DNA from: Collinsella stercoris DSM 13279
GTDB taxonomy: Bacteria > Actinomycetota > Coriobacteriia > Coriobacteriales > Coriobacteriaceae
Direction of reading: 5' to 3'
DNA length: 64,000 nucleotides
NCBI RefSeq assembly: GCF_020735465.1
Contig: NZ_CP085935.1
Span: 1,922,001-1,986,000 of the forward strand
Each line of letters begins with the position of its first letter. The stretch's first letter is position 1. The position numbers and the translations under genes are program-made. Below are positions 51,564-58,116 of this stretch, piece after piece. The notes beneath the pieces are model-generated. The model was not told the DNA's origin. It ran no database searches and saw only the letters and a list, made by a program, of their open reading frames with translations.

Positions 51564-52007
51564 TCACACGCGGTGGCCCGCAAAGGCGAGGGGGCGTATC
51601 TCAAACCAGGGCGCGCCGTTGCGCATCACCCGGATGGTCTCCCCCGTGTCGTTCGCATACGTCGCAAGGCGGCTCAGATGAGTCTTTGCCTCCCGCATGG
51701 GAACGCCGCCATCGTCTCTCAGCCATTTGCCCAACGGAAACGCATGGGCGCGCTCCATCGCGCCCGCATCACGGTCCGCCGCCCCGATGATCGCCTGCCC
51801 TAAAAAGCCCGCAGGGTCCTCGGTAAACGCAACTGACGAGGACGCGGAGGCTCCACAGCCCTCCGACCAGCCAACCGAGCCCGCCGCATCGTCCGGCAGC
51901 CCCCAATCTTCGACGTCCTCGAATATCTCCCAGTCTTCCGGTCCCGCATCCGCAACCACTTGCCCGCGTTCCGCCCGCTCCATCTCACCTTGCGCCACGT
52001 GTACCAT
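51564..52007 (-). CDS. Orphan Phd/YefM-like antitoxin-domain protein
   Basis: A 147-residue protein. The last 45 residues (MREAKTHLSRLATYANDTGE, then TIRVMRNGAPWFEI) match the Phd/YefM antitoxin pattern of a Leu-rich helix pair followed by a strand with a (T/R)NGxP turn. The first 95 residues are acidic and Ala/Gly/Asp-rich with no recognised domain (EDWEIFEDVEDWGLPDD). In typical antitoxins the DNA-binding part is at the N-terminus and a toxin gene follows; here it is C-terminal and no toxin ORF is adjacent (ccmD is 245 bp upstream). Start chosen at ATG 52007 with GGAGGG 4 nt upstream; 52019 is an alternative. Confidence 0.65.
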   Translation of the reverse strand: MVHVAQGEMERAERGQVVADAGPEDWEIFEDVEDWGLPDDAAGSVGWSEGCGASASSSVAFTEDPAGFLGQAIIGAADRDAGAMERAHAFPLGKWLRDDGGVPMREAKTHLSRLATYANDTGETIRVMRNGAPWFEIRPLAFAGHRV

Positions 52008-52179
52008 CTTGCCCTCCATTTCCTTGGGAGCAGGAGCGTATCAGGCCGATCGAGCGGCTTTTCCCGCCCATGCTGACCAAAGCCTTGCACGCGGCACCGC
52101 ATCGTCTGACACCGCAGCGTAGGCACGCCGTATCGCAACAACGTGCGCTCGCCACCCTAAAAAGATGCACGAAATGCGC

Positions 52180-52252: not shown

Positions 52253-52444
52253 CTAGCGAGAGCCCTTCTCTCGATCCTCAAGGGCGCGCTTGAGCGCGTC
52301 GATATCCGCCTCCGTCCGCTTGGACTTGCGCCACAGCGACAGCACGAACGCGAACAAGGCGAGCAGAATGCCCACATACGCGGCGATCACATACGGAGCC
52401 GCAGGCAGCACGGTCGAGTAGACCTCAGAGAGAATCGGATCCAT
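52253..52444 (-). CDS. ccmD: CcmD-like small membrane protein
   Basis: A 63-residue protein with one hydrophobic helix (about 17-38, YVIAAYVGILLALFAFVLSLW) followed by a charged cytoplasmic tail (RKSKRTEADIDALKRALEDRE). Size, topology and position directly after ccmC (no gap) identify it as CcmD, which in System I helps release holo-CcmE from the CcmABC complex. Sequence conservation of CcmD is low, so context carries the call. Confidence 0.8.
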   Translation of the reverse strand: MDPILSEVYSTVLPAAPYVIAAYVGILLALFAFVLSLWRKSKRTEADIDALKRALEDREKGSR

Positions 52445-53431
52445 TTAGTCCTCCTTGGGCATATGGGACGCACGCGAAACATCGGGACAGGAGCGGGTGG
52501 GGGCGTCGGCTTCACCAGGGGCGCGCGAGCCGGCAGGCGTATCGGCTTCACCAGGGGCGCGCGAACCGGCAGACGCATCAAAAGCAGTCGCGCCCCGCGC
52601 GCCGCCGGACCCACCCGTCAAGGCCACATCCGCGGCACGCGCCTGAAGCCGATCGAGCGCCGCAGCCGCTGCCGCGCGGGACGCTTCTCCATCCAGCTCC
52701 TCCAAACGGCGCTTGAGATCTTCGACCTCATCGGCAGCCGCGTTTACGCGCAGGGCATACCGGTACAGGGCGAACGCGATCATGAGCACACCGGCCATTC
52801 CCAGCAAAAACGGGATGAGCATGAGCGGCGGCAGGCCGGAATCGGTGCGGAACACCACGGGATGCACCGAGGAGGGCACCAGGCGCGTAATGAGAAACGA
52901 GATGGGCGCGTCCACAAAGGCGACGATGCAGAACACCGCCGCAAAGCGCGCCGCCTTCTCGGGGTCGTCCAGCGCGTTACGCAGCACAAAATAGCCAATC
53001 ACCAGCAGCATCAAGATGAAGTAGGTGGTCAGGCGCGGCTCCCACACCCACCAGACGCCCCACTCAAAACGGGTCCACAAGTCGCCCGAGATCATGGTCG
53101 CCACAATGAACACAAGTGTGATCTGCATGGCGGTACGCGAGCGCACGTCGTGGGCGCGATCCTTGGTCATGAGGAAGCGCAGGGCATGGAACGCCGCGAC
53201 GCCCATCGCCGCAAATGATGCGACGGCCACAGGGACATGCAGGTAAAAGATCTTTTGGCTCAGCAGCAACTTAGTGGTGACCATTTGCCCGGCAATCACC
53301 ACGGGCTCGGGCAGCTGCGCGCCCTGCACGAGCGGGGCGAGCGTGAACGTCCACACCACGTCGGCGGCTATGAGCAGCGCGCCCAGGACCAACAAGGCCG
53401 GCACCAGCGCATCGGCGCGATTCTTGTGCAT
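52445..53431 (-). CDS. ccmC: Heme-handling protein CcmC
   Basis: A 328-residue membrane protein with six helices (about 10-235) that presents heme to CcmE. The Trp-rich heme motif WGVWWVWEPRLT is present near residue 123, and flanking His residues (HVPVAVASF, SSVHPVVF) match the axial ligand positions. Beyond residue 240 there is a coiled-coil-like Ala/Arg segment and a low-complexity tail containing a 13-residue duplication (AGSRAPGEAD(T/A)P), longer than the usual 230-250-residue protein. It overlaps or abuts ccmD and follows ccmB after 110 bp. Confidence 0.93.
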   Translation of the reverse strand: MHKNRADALVPALLVLGALLIAADVVWTFTLAPLVQGAQLPEPVVIAGQMVTTKLLLSQKIFYLHVPVAVASFAAMGVAAFHALRFLMTKDRAHDVRSRTAMQITLVFIVATMISGDLWTRFEWGVWWVWEPRLTTYFILMLLVIGYFVLRNALDDPEKAARFAAVFCIVAFVDAPISFLITRLVPSSVHPVVFRTDSGLPPLMLIPFLLGMAGVLMIAFALYRYALRVNAAADEVEDLKRRLEELDGEASRAAAAAALDRLQARAADVALTGGSGGARGATAFDASAGSRAPGEADTPAGSRAPGEADAPTRSCPDVSRASHMPKED

Positions 53432-53541: not shown

Positions 53542-54297
53542 TTACGAATCGAGCACGAACTCGTACAGGCCCCACGCCGCGGCGATCATGACCACGTCGT
53601 ACGCCCCTGCCAGCGCCAGGCTCCGCCAGAACGTCGCAAAGGTCCCCTCAACACCCGCGAGCGCCACCCCGGTGGCGGACACGCAGGCATACAGCAGGGG
53701 GAACGCCACGGGGATGAACAGGATGGCGAGCAGCACGTCCTTGCCGCGCGTGTCGATGGCCATGGTGGACAGCAGCGTGCCCACGCCGGCAACGCCTACC
53801 GTGCCCACCAAGAGCGGCAGTACCATGAACGGTGCGGTGGGCGGAAGGGCCGCGCCGGAAAGGAAGAAGACGAAGAACAGCGGCACGGTCACGAGCTCGA
53901 CCGCAAGCAGGAACAGCAGGTTCGAGGTCGCCTTGGCCAAAAACACCACCGCGCGATCGACCGGGGCGAGCAAAATGCCCTCAAGGCAACCCGACTCGGT
54001 CTCGTGTGAAAAACTGCGGTTGAGGCCCAGAAGGCTCGTGAACACGATGAGGGCCCACAGCAGGCCACCGGCAAACGAAACGATTTGCAGCTTGTCGCCC
54101 ACCTGCGCCAACGCGGCGCCGTACACGGTCAAGACGAGCAGCGAGTACACCGCCATGGAGGTGAGCATCTCGCGCGTGCGCAGCTCCTGGCGAACATCCT
54201 TGGCAAGCAGGGCTCTGTACTGGGCGAACGCGGAGGGTCTTGGCGCGCGGGCGCCCTGTGTGAACGGGCCTTCGCCCATCGACTTGCGCACGGTCAT
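53542..54297 (-). CDS. ccmB: Heme-export ABC permease CcmB
   Basis: A 251-residue membrane protein with six helices: KDVRQELRTREMLTSMAVYSL start, then LNRSFSHETESGCLEGILLAP (split, the family motif near residue 95) and DTRGKDVLLAILFIPVAFPLL. It forms the CcmAB ABC transporter that uses ATP to release holo-CcmE. About 25 extra residues precede the usual start; the ATG at 54297 directly follows the ccmA stop. The spacing to ccmC (110 bp) allows a secondary promoter. Confidence 0.93.
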   Translation of the reverse strand: MTVRKSMGEGPFTQGARAPRPSAFAQYRALLAKDVRQELRTREMLTSMAVYSLLVLTVYGAALAQVGDKLQIVSFAGGLLWALIVFTSLLGLNRSFSHETESGCLEGILLAPVDRAVVFLAKATSNLLFLLAVELVTVPLFFVFFLSGAALPPTAPFMVLPLLVGTVGVAGVGTLLSTMAIDTRGKDVLLAILFIPVAFPLLYACVSATGVALAGVEGTFATFWRSLALAGAYDVVMIAAAWGLYEFVLDS

Positions 54298-55173
54298 CTA
54301 CGCCACCCCCATGCCCACCGTTGCCAGGTACAGCTCGCGGAACGCCTCGCGGTCGATGAGATCCTTGTTCGCGCACACCACCACGCGCCCCTGCGCCAAG
54401 ATGAGCGCATGGGTGCAGAGGTCGTACCCCTTGTCCAAATCGTGACTCACCATGACGAACGTGCGGCCCTCGCGCACGCGTTCCAGCAGCCGGTCGAACA
54501 GCTCCGCCGCATGCGGGTCGAGGCCGGAATACGGCTCGTCGAGCAGTACGAGGTCGGGGTCGTTGATGAGGGCGCGGGCGATGGACAGGCGCTGCTGCAT
54601 GCCGCGGGAGAAGGTGCGCACGCAATCGTTGCGGCGGTGGTCGAGCTCGACCAGGCGGAGCAGCTCATCGATGCGCTCCTGCGCGGGCGCACCCGTCACG
54701 CCGTAGAGCGATGCGAAGAACGCCAGGTTCTCCTGGGCGGTCAGGTCGCCATACAGCATCGACTTGTGCGAGATGAGCCCGATGCGCGACCGCAGGGCGT
54801 CCGGCTCCTCCAGGGCATCGATGCCCAACATGCGCAGACTGCCGCGGCTGGGACGTGCCAAGAGGGCCAGCTCGAGCAACAGGGTGGTCTTGCCGGCGCC
54901 GTTGGGGCCGAAAATCGAGAGGAACGCCCCCTGGGGCAACGCAAGGTCAACGCCGTCGAGGGCGCGGCGCGCGCCGAACTGCTTGATCAGCCCACGCGCC
55001 TCGATCGCGCACGGCGCATGGACGACGGCGGGCGAAGAGGCTCGGGAGTCCAACTGCCCTTCCGCCTCCACGAAACCGGAGCCGCCACAGCCTTCCGCCG
55101 GCGCAAACGCCCCCTTCGCACCCCCGGCGACCCCAGACGTCCCTTCCGCTGAGCGGGCCTCGGACGCGGACAT
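54298..55173 (-). CDS. ccmA: Heme-export ABC ATPase CcmA
   Basis: A 291-residue ATPase. Residues 1-55 are an Ala/Gly/Ser-rich leader; the ATPase domain has Walker A GPNGAGKTT near 90, signature FSRGMQQRLSIARA near 190, and Walker B LVLLDEPYSGLD, all intact. The ATG at 55173 overlaps the ccmF stop (TGATG), and its own stop abuts the ccmB start. It powers release of heme-loaded CcmE together with CcmB. Confidence 0.94.
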   Translation of the reverse strand: MSASEARSAEGTSGVAGGAKGAFAPAEGCGGSGFVEAEGQLDSRASSPAVVHAPCAIEARGLIKQFGARRALDGVDLALPQGAFLSIFGPNGAGKTTLLLELALLARPSRGSLRMLGIDALEEPDALRSRIGLISHKSMLYGDLTAQENLAFFASLYGVTGAPAQERIDELLRLVELDHRRNDCVRTFSRGMQQRLSIARALINDPDLVLLDEPYSGLDPHAAELFDRLLERVREGRTFVMVSHDLDKGYDLCTHALILAQGRVVVCANKDLIDREAFRELYLATVGMGVA

Positions 55174-57320
55174 CACGCCTCGCCCGCCTTCGCGCGGGCG
55201 CGCTCATCGGCGGCGAGCAGCGGCGTGGCCCGGCGCGGCGCGAACGCGAGCACGATGCCGAGCGTGGACACGGCGCCACCCACCCAGGTGAACAGGATCA
55301 GCGGGTTCACCTTGACGTTGATGGACAGCGAGCCGTCGGCGTTCAGGCCCTGGAACGCGATGAACAGGTCCTCGGTGGGGAACGTGAGCACGGCAGCGTC
55401 GAGCGTGGACTGACTCGTGGCGGCGGCGACCTTCATCGAGGGCGCCACATGTCCCAGCACGCGGCCCTCCTCGCCCGCGCGCGCAACATCGAGTTCCACG
55501 CGCATGATCTCGTTGTCCTGGCTATCCGAATAACGCTCGCTGCCCGTGAGCGTGAGCACGTACTCGCCCACCTGCGCGGACTCGCCTGCCTCGCCCGCAA
55601 GGTCGACCGTGACCTCACGCACGTACATCATCGAGCCAACGAGGCCGATCACCACGACCGCCACACCCAAGTGGCACAGGTAGCCGCCGGCCTGCGCGGG
55701 CGAGCGGCGGAACAGGTTGATCACGGCGGCGGGAGCGGACTCGCCCTTGTTCTTCATGCGGGCGCGCACGCCCCGAACCAGCAGGTAGCCCGAGGTCGCC
55801 AGCAGCAGCGCGGCGGAAGCCAACGCCACGACGGTCAGCGCAAAGTAGTACACCGCAGGTCCCTGCTCGGCCAGCGCGGCGGCGGCAGAACCGCCGTCGG
55901 CCAAGATGCCGTAGTAGGTGGGCACCAGCGTGAGCGCAAAATACACGAGCTCGATCGCAAAGATCACCGCGGCAACGACCAGCGGCCAGCGCATGTGACG
56001 CAAAAACGCGGGACCCTGCGTCTTGCGCCACCCCAGCAGCGGGCATACCGCCATGAGCAGCACCACCACAACGGCAACCGGGCGCGCCACGGCGTTGTAC
56101 GCGCCCGCCGCGACCACCGCGCCGCCGAGCGGCATCCAGCTGGGCAGCGCGCTCGACACGGTCAGGTACGCCACCAGCACGCCCGCCATGATCATAACGA
56201 TGTTCGTGAGGTAATACGTGCCGTTCTTGGAGACCATCGACTCGACCTGGTCGTCATCCTCGCCCAACTCGCCATGGCGGTACAGCAGGCCCAACAAGAA
56301 CGCCAGCCCGCTCGCCACCATAATGGCCAGGAAAAAGTACGTGGACACCGGGTCCTCGGCAAACGCGTGGACGCTCTGCACCAGGCCGGAGCGCGTGATG
56401 AACGTGCCGAGCACCACGAAGATGAACGTGATGGTGGCGGCGAACATGCTCCACCGCTTGAAGATGCCGCGCTTGCGGTACATCGTGAAGCTGTGGATCA
56501 TCGCCACGCAGGTGAGCCAGCTCATGAGGCTCGCGTTCTCCACGGCGTCCCACGCCCAAAAACCGCCCCAGCCTAGGACCACGTACGCCCACACGGCGCC
56601 CAGCCCCATGCCGATCGACAGGAAGATGAAGCCGAACACCGCCAGGCGGTCGCACAGCTCGACCCAGCGCGCAGAGAGGTCACCGGTGATGAACGCCGCC
56701 ATGGCATATGCGAACGGGATGGTCATGGCCGCGTAACCGATGAAGGTCGCCGGCGGGTGCAAGATCATGGCCCAGTGCATGAGCAGCGGGTTCATGCCAC
56801 CGATCTTGCTCACAAGCGTGCCGTCGGGGTTGAGGTACTCGGCGGCGGTGGCCATGAACGGGTTGTTGGAGGCGGAGAACACGAGCGTGGCGGTGAACAG
56901 GGCAACCACGATCTCGGTCACGCCGAGGGCGACGCATGTAAGGTCATCCTTTGCGCAGCGACGTGCGTGCGCCTGGGCGGCGCCAAACGCCGCGATGAGC
57001 CACGTCCAGAGCAGCAACGAGCCCTGGCGGCCCGCCCACACGGCGCTCACGCGGTACAGCGGCTGCAGGGGGCTGTCCGTGGCGGGGTAGTTGGAGACCA
57101 CGTACGCCAAGCTGTAGTTCTCCGTGAGCATGCACACCAAGATGACGCCGATGCACGCGGTGAGCAGGCCAAAGCTCACGTGCGTGAACGCGTAGCCCGT
57201 GCGAACGGCACGGTCCTTGCGCGCGCCGCCCAGCTTGACACCCGCCAAAAGCAGCACTGCCGAGACCAGGGCGAACACAAGCGCGAGCGCCTGCATCACG
57301 TTGCCGATAATCGAGACCAT
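55173..57320 (-). CDS. ccmF: Heme lyase subunit CcmF
   Basis: A 715-residue membrane protein with about 14 helices that attaches heme from CcmE to apocytochrome c. It has the CcsA-type Trp motif WGGFWAWDAVENASLMSWL near residue 248, WAGRQGSLLLWTW near 91, and conserved His-containing loops; an extracytoplasmic loop near 575-680 precedes the last helix. The ATG at 57320 follows GAAAGGG; a frame to 57434 crosses the ccmE terminator. In standard System I it works with CcmH/I, which are not seen here. Confidence 0.93.
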   Translation of the reverse strand: MVSIIGNVMQALALVFALVSAVLLLAGVKLGGARKDRAVRTGYAFTHVSFGLLTACIGVILVCMLTENYSLAYVVSNYPATDSPLQPLYRVSAVWAGRQGSLLLWTWLIAAFGAAQAHARRCAKDDLTCVALGVTEIVVALFTATLVFSASNNPFMATAAEYLNPDGTLVSKIGGMNPLLMHWAMILHPPATFIGYAAMTIPFAYAMAAFITGDLSARWVELCDRLAVFGFIFLSIGMGLGAVWAYVVLGWGGFWAWDAVENASLMSWLTCVAMIHSFTMYRKRGIFKRWSMFAATITFIFVVLGTFITRSGLVQSVHAFAEDPVSTYFFLAIMVASGLAFLLGLLYRHGELGEDDDQVESMVSKNGTYYLTNIVMIMAGVLVAYLTVSSALPSWMPLGGAVVAAGAYNAVARPVAVVVVLLMAVCPLLGWRKTQGPAFLRHMRWPLVVAAVIFAIELVYFALTLVPTYYGILADGGSAAAALAEQGPAVYYFALTVVALASAALLLATSGYLLVRGVRARMKNKGESAPAAVINLFRRSPAQAGGYLCHLGVAVVVIGLVGSMMYVREVTVDLAGEAGESAQVGEYVLTLTGSERYSDSQDNEIMRVELDVARAGEEGRVLGHVAPSMKVAAATSQSTLDAAVLTFPTEDLFIAFQGLNADGSLSINVKVNPLILFTWVGGAVSTLGIVLAFAPRRATPLLAADERARAKAGEA

Positions 57321-57398
57321 ACGGGCCCTTTCTAGAGTTCGGGTGCCGGGATTCCCCTCTGCAAGGAACCCGCGAACCACCCCACGTTCACATCCGTC

Positions 57399-57428
57399 AA
57401 AAAGCGCAGCGAGACTGCCCCGCTGCGC
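57399..57428 (-). terminator. Intrinsic terminator between ccmE and ccmF
   Basis: GCGCAGCG (57404-57411) pairs with CGCTGCGC (57421-57428), loop of 9, followed on the minus strand by five T residues (57403-57399). It lies 17 bp after ccmE, so it would reduce expression of ccmFABCD relative to ccmE, or ccmF has its own promoter. Confidence 0.82.
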
Positions 57429-57444
57429 CCACATGCGTTATATG

Positions 57445-58116
57445 TTACTTGCTGATAGACGAATCAATCGAGGGCTGCTCGGTCGCCACGAAATTGCCGT
57501 CCTCATCCAAGTGGCCGGACAGGACGACCGCCGTGCCATCGGTCATGGCCTCGTCGAGACCGCCCTCGTACACCACGTTGAGCAGCGCGCCTTGAGACTC
57601 GATTGCAAAGCGATACGAGGCCTGGGCGTCATTCACCTCGCCGTCGATGTAGCCGCAGACCTTCGTCTCCTTGCCCACCATGCTTTCGGCCTGGTCGAGC
57701 AGCCCCTTCACCGTCAGGGAGCCCTCGGCGCTCTCGTACTTGGAGGGGCACTTGGTGACCATCTCCGTGCAGTTCAGCATGAGCGGGTCCTCTACGGTGC
57801 CGGTGCAAATCGCCACAACGCCCGTGCCGAACGTGGCAGGCAGAGCCCCGTCGTAGGTAACGAGCAGCTCCTGCGAGCCGTCGCCCTCCTCGGGCGTGAT
57901 GGCGAACTGGACGCTCGCGCCCTCACTCTGGATGGAATCCGCCACGACCGAGCCCGTCACCTGCACCTTTTTGCCGGTATAGCCGCCGGCCAAAAGATCG
58001 CCGACGCTCAACGACGAGGCCGCGCCGCCAGAGCCCGCGATCGCGGCGACCACCAGCATGGCAATTGCGACGATCCCTCCCGTCACGACAAGTCGGCGCT
58101 GGGCTTTCTTGTTCAT
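57445..58116 (-). CDS. ccmE: Heme chaperone CcmE, cysteine (CxxxY) type, extended
   Basis: A 223-residue periplasm-facing heme chaperone. One N-terminal membrane helix (about 8-30) is followed by an OB-fold (about 40-128). The heme site is CPSKY (C123, Y127) instead of HxxxY, the CxxxY form described for some sulfate reducers and archaea. Standard CcmE is about 150 residues. Here residues 134-215 look like a second, degenerate OB-fold (GKETKVCGYIDGEVNDA, YRFAIESQGALLNVVYEGG, DGTAVVLSGHL) with no heme residue. The ATG at 58116 follows GGAGGG. It is the first gene of ccmEFABCD. Confidence 0.88.
   Translation of the reverse strand: MNKKAQRRLVVTGGIVAIAMLVVAAIAGSGGAASSLSVGDLLAGGYTGKKVQVTGSVVADSIQSEGASVQFAITPEEGDGSQELLVTYDGALPATFGTGVVAICTGTVEDPLMLNCTEMVTKCPSKYESAEGSLTVKGLLDQAESMVGKETKVCGYIDGEVNDAQASYRFAIESQGALLNVVYEGGLDEAMTDGTAVVLSGHLDEDGNFVATEQPSIDSSISK

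Follow-up and report, generated by a model that had tools for sequence, protein, structure and literature searches.

A second OB domain in the heme chaperone CcmE of Coriobacteriia and its possible role in docking

One question about System I is how CcmE recognises CcmC, where it takes up heme, and afterwards CcmF, where it gives the heme up. In E. coli, R73, D101 and E105 of CcmE pair with D47, Q50 and R55 of CcmC (PMC6204919). The CcmE of E. coli and Shewanella (PDB 1sr3, 8ce8 and 1j6q) has a membrane anchor, a single OB fold, an HxxxY heme site and a flexible C-terminal tail, and works with CcmH. In the System I* of Desulfovibrio, CcmE (PDB 2kct) also has one OB domain, but its heme site is CxxxY and CcmH is not needed (PMC3601427). 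The archaeal CcmABCEF of Methanosarcina likewise combines CxxxY with the absence of CcmH (PMC9084895); it has no CcmD and, by the descriptions found, a single-domain CcmE. A literature search that covered CcmE in Coriobacteria and Collinsella, and duplicated or tandem OB folds, returned no CcmE with two OB domains. The form found in Coriobacteriia appears to be undescribed so far, in agreement with the first-pass annotation of this DNA, whose author knew of no such protein.

The two-domain CcmE and its single origin

The window, i.e. the whole stretch of 64,000 nucleotides of Collinsella stercoris DSM 13279 analysed here, carries on its minus strand ccmE (57445..58116), an ORF with a PF03100 match that encodes a two-OB heme chaperone of 223 aa plus stop. 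The start MNKK is kept in relatives, so a longer TTG start of the ORF is probably not used. All parts of the gene given here lie on the minus strand. An N-terminal anchor helix (residues 3-30; 58027..58110), seen in the AlphaFold2 secondary structure, is followed by OB1, the putative heme-carrying domain (residues 34-121; 57754..58017), which was delimited by PF03100, AlphaFold2 and mapping on E. coli CcmE. The CPSKY motif (residues 123-127; 57736..57750) lies in the linker between both folds, and OB2 (residues 134-213; 57478..57717), delimited by PF03100, AlphaFold2 and profile-profile comparison, is a CcmE-type OB fold that lacks heme residues. The arrangement of an N-terminal anchor and then an OB fold is that of the PF03100 family, and the predicted heme-binding site stands after the OB fold as in other H/CxxxY proteins.

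The second OB fold, which the first-pass annotation had read from a repeated strand pattern, is recovered by several sequence comparisons. PF03100 scores 92.3 bits against the whole protein, 59.4 bits against its first half and 37.0 bits against residues 131-223 alone, so that both halves separately exceed the cut-off of 24.6 bits. A whole-genome profile search also scored two CcmE stretches separately (E 8e-16 and 2e-8). Direct comparison of the halves by BLASTP is marginal (30% identity, E 0.009), and hhalign of 112 OB1 against 112 OB2 sequences gives a probability of 99.2 (E 3.7e-19, 86 columns, 26% identity). The NCBIfam CcmE equivalogs (NF009727 etc.) reach at best 59.9 bits, against a curated cut-off of 126, which marks this CcmE, by sequence, as diverged from them.

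The predicted structure agrees with a duplicated domain. AlphaFold2 places two beta barrels in the full protein (pLDDT 80.5), joined by a low-confidence linker that contains CPSKY; neither a single fold nor a disordered tail after residue 130 is predicted, and at a pTM of 0.44 the relative orientation of OB1 and OB2 is not determined. The membrane helix and the barrel that follows it match 1j6q (Z 13.0, rmsd 2.0, 91 aligned). Modelled alone, OB2 is predicted with confidence (pLDDT 92.4, pTM 0.83) and superposes on E. coli CcmE 8ce8_E (Z 10.5, rmsd 2.7, 91 aligned). In a structure search with OB2, E. coli CcmE at this Z score is level with unrelated OB proteins. The modelled fold is thus that of an ordinary OB domain, and it is the sequence that identifies OB2 as a CcmE domain.

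The two-OB form is not peculiar to this gene, which the first-pass annotation had treated singly, but the rule in the class. Among 248 genomes of Coriobacteriia sampled, CcmE was found in 145, of which 140 gave at least two CcmE matches. It is present in Collinsella, Gordonibacter, Adlercreutzia, Slackia and other Eggerthellaceae. True losses of OB2 were considered for the five genomes with one match and rejected: two (G149 and G175) have a tail of 92-93 aa that reads as a diverged OB2, ccmE is interrupted by a contig end in two others (G190 and G139), and the sole CcmE match of G177 lies inside CcmF. From these searches 112 distinct two-OB proteins were collected, in most of which the tail from the motif to the end measures 93-98 aa; in the one-OB relatives examined, 3-31 residues follow the heme motif. 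Low-complexity insertions of ~30-40 residues occur in OB2 of one genome (G041, L025) and in OB1 of another (G035, L014).

The survey of this form covered the Actinomycetota, where a fused CcmE pair was absent from the ~145 CcmE-bearing genomes outside Coriobacteriia. In the few genomes outside the class that give two CcmE matches, these come from separate genes, which are either neighbours or on different contigs. In five loci of other Actinomycetota classes (L194, L195, L196, L197 and L198, from G310, G498, G531, G611 and G522), two separate CcmE genes are adjacent, one with CPSKY and the other with CPENY, CPDNY or CPDKL; these pairs are a second, different route of CcmE doubling. Viral contigs gave no relative of the two-OB protein, and PLSDB plasmids only one-OB CcmE, with the single domain matched by both query halves, or weak fragments. 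In a tree of the domains, every OB2 falls within a single clade (support 1.0). The OB1 sequences make up a second one (support 0.58, or 0.99 if three single-domain CcmEs are counted with them). One clade on each side points to one duplication of the OB domain, in the ancestor of Coriobacteriia or earlier.

Division of residues between OB1 and OB2

The residues of both domains were mapped on E. coli CcmE numbering in the 112 two-OB proteins. In OB1, the heme-ligand Cys and Tyr are found in 112/112, as are the Pro and Lys of the motif, with the proviso that the collecting search required CP[ST]KY and every protein has it for that reason; Phe at E. coli position 103, here F96, is kept in 111. In OB2 the equivalents of the heme Cys, the Tyr and Phe103 are all missing, the position of the heme-platform Phe being taken by V, I or M, and [CH]xxxY occurs in 0/112 proteins. 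Both the CPSKY site at residues 123-127 and the want of a heme residue in the second domain are as the first-pass annotation had described them. A two-hemed chaperone, with OB2 as second heme carrier, might be imagined from the family and fold that OB2 shares with OB1, but the missing motif and platform Phe make it improbable in the extreme, and heme binding by OB2 runs counter to its sequence.

Residues of another kind are kept in OB2. Acidic residues at both positions D101 and E105 of E. coli are present in 92 of the OB2 and in three of the OB1 domains, and in the window they correspond to E189..D193 (57538..57552, minus strand), at the place of the residues that dock E. coli CcmE on CcmC (PMC6204919). 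Arg at E. coli position 81 is almost invariant in OB2 (111/112), where it is R169 in the window (57610..57612, minus strand).

We infer from this pattern, with confidence and doubt about equally balanced, that heme is carried by OB1 and that OB2 is the part that docks, to CcmC, to CcmF or to both. The OB domain of a System I* CcmE would have been duplicated once, after which the halves split the work. OB1 and the CPSKY linker would take up and carry heme, which would be bonded via the Cys and have the Tyr as ligand. OB2 would have lost heme binding and turned into a docking module, which would bring the chaperone to the membrane proteins that handle heme: CcmC at loading and possibly CcmF at unloading.

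The main rival of docking is a lid: heme would sit in a cleft formed by the two barrels and be protected there against oxidation or loss, with OB2 taking the place of the flexible tail of an ordinary CcmE. The position of CPSKY in a linker of 12 residues between two confidently predicted barrels is consistent with it, and so is the nearly constant spacing from the motif to the end in most of the 112 proteins. Since the low pTM leaves the orientation of the barrels undetermined, since V, I or M stands at the heme-platform position of OB2, and since other CxxxY CcmEs manage without a lid, we regard it as rather unlikely.

OB2 might also be a folded spacer or stabiliser that binds no particular partner and persists because CcmE is less stable without it. 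This would account for the tolerance of lineage-specific insertions in OB1 (G035) and OB2 (G041), and for the slightly higher variability of OB2 (mean entropy 1.86 bits, against 1.61 for OB1). However, OB2 is under purifying selection, with a dN/dS of 0.05-0.18 (pairs with dS > 0.15) that is about as low as that of OB1. The near-invariant Arg and the conserved acidic pair are specific to it, and the domain has been copied into CcmF, as described below. A spacer is therefore less probable still than the lid.

Candidate partners of OB2: CcmC and CcmF

Turning to the proposed docking by OB2, ccmC (52445..53431, minus strand), assigned by PF01578 and its operon position, encodes an expanded first periplasmic loop (residues ~33-60; 53252..53335, minus strand), the region to which CcmE docks in E. 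coli and the site of the docking residues 47-55. By a hydropathy measure, the CcmC loop before P-His has 18-53 residues in two-OB genomes and 10-21 in one-OB genomes. E. coli R55 is replaced by Lys in the class CcmCs displayed in the alignment, and D47 and Q50 are not recognisable in Coriobacteriia. One family (f12) has OB2 together with a short CcmC loop, and the acid at position 101 is lost in six of its seven OB2 domains, compared with 10/82 in genomes with the long loop. This fits docking, as far as a comparison that is phylogenetically one case can. Since the loop change and OB2 both go back to one clade, the two together count for little more than one event. Also against docking, OB2 has not retained E. 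coli R73, and the D/E-G at the positions of E105-G106 may simply form a turn.

The heme lyase gene ccmF (55173..57434, minus strand; 753 aa as listed), assigned by PF01578 and PF16327 and by a match to PDB 6zmq, brings a second line of evidence. Two of 106 long CcmFs, both from the same genus (G154, L238:214-2667; G177, L235:565-2730), contain an OB2-like insert of ~88 residues. It is placed in a loop at about residue 437, which in the window's CcmF (56114..56138, minus strand) is free of such an insert. The insert scores 40.4 bits with an OB2 model and 30.0 bits with an OB1 model, and in the tree it is nested in the OB2 clade, near the OB2 of its own family; by these comparisons it is derived from OB2. 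The loop that receives it is taken as periplasmic, judging by the charges on either side and by the kind of domain inserted. The presence of an OB2 copy in CcmF suggests, without proof, that these membrane proteins are also where OB2 of CcmE acts. A contact of OB2 with CcmF, which the first-pass annotation had raised, thereby gains one indirect support, from a single genus.

The same data appear compatible with docking to either CcmC or CcmF. It can be surmised, more tentatively than docking itself, that an OB docking module was rebuilt together with the docking loop of CcmC and later copied into CcmF, which would make it a movable domain of CcmE-CcmC/CcmF recognition. If the two halves do separate carriage from docking, each could be mutated alone, unlike in a one-OB CcmE.

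Operon, missing CcmH and known systems

The genes of the window's operon are ordered ccmEFABCD on the minus strand, and the order E-F-A-B-C is kept across Coriobacteriia with few exceptions. The ABC ATPase gene ccmA (54298..55176, minus strand) was assigned by PF00005 and its conserved operon position, and ccmB (53542..54297, minus strand) by PF03379. Directly after ccmC, an ORF of 63 aa (52253..52444, minus strand) is the candidate ccmD. It scores 23.7 bits with PF04995, below the cut-off of 25.6, and a CcmD-like ORF of similar sequence stands at the same position in nearly all class loci examined. Further 3' of the operon, the C-terminal part of a minus-strand ORF (51564-52019) resembles, by eye, a Phd/YefM-type antitoxin.

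CcmH (PF03918) is absent from the source genome and from 16 further class genomes, while the same search was positive in four control genomes; DsbD_TM was likewise absent from the source genome. A replacement of CcmH/CcmI by OB2, for instance in handling apocytochrome, had been put forward in the first-pass annotation, and the lack of CcmH in 17/17 two-OB genomes tested is what one would expect from it. Yet CcmH is also missing from eight related Actinomycetota genomes with a one-OB CxxxY CcmE (it is present in 11 other one-OB genomes), and the System I* of archaea and Desulfovibrio runs without it (PMC9084895, PMC3601427). The loss of CcmH hence does not need OB2, and such a replacement is very improbable.

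The likely main substrate of the operon in Collinsella stercoris is a NapC/NrfH-like multiheme cytochrome (G000:C1:2090970-2091647), which adjoins an aldehyde ferredoxin oxidoreductase and a Tat-signal ferredoxin (L035, G000:C1:2087850-2091650). A scan of the genome for CxxCH found no enrichment (137, compared with 138 in the control). Of 37 genomes of the genus, 12 have ccmE, and those 12 and no others have PF14537 cytochromes, which indicates that the operon is retained where a substrate exists. Collinsella, which has a single ccm operon and in most cases a single NapC/NrfH-like cytochrome, offers a very small natural test system. The multiheme cytochromes of Eggerthellaceae are thought to supply drug- and toxin-reducing enzymes. 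Cgr1 of E. lenta was not matured in foreign hosts, and incompatible maturation factors were suspected (PMC5953540); the two-OB Ccm machinery is a candidate reason for this failure.

With regard to the known systems, the window's locus has two marks of System I*, a CcmE whose heme site carries Cys instead of His and the lack of CcmH, and the variant System I that the first-pass annotation had recognised from the cysteine holds; a thioether bond to this Cys is predicted. The archaeal minimal Ccm of Methanosarcina shares CxxxY and the lack of CcmH, but it is defined by the lack of CcmD, and here the 63-aa CcmD-like ORF is present 3' of ccmC. With E. coli and Shewanella the protein has the anchor and the OB fold in common, and OB2 finds their CcmE by profile search as well as by superposition; these differ in having His for Cys, one OB domain, CcmH as partner and the flexible tail at the place of OB2. 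The one-OB CxxxY CcmEs of other Actinomycetota classes (for example those of G271, G286 and G302) are nearest to OB1 in the tree and have TKCPSKY or TQCPSKY, the order E-F-A-B-C and no CcmH as here, but they end 3-31 residues after the motif and go with a short CcmC loop. The CcmE of Desulfovibrio matches OB1 and the motif by profile (E 8e-9) and likewise combines CxxxY and an OB fold with independence from CcmH; it has one OB domain, whereas that of Collinsella stercoris has two.
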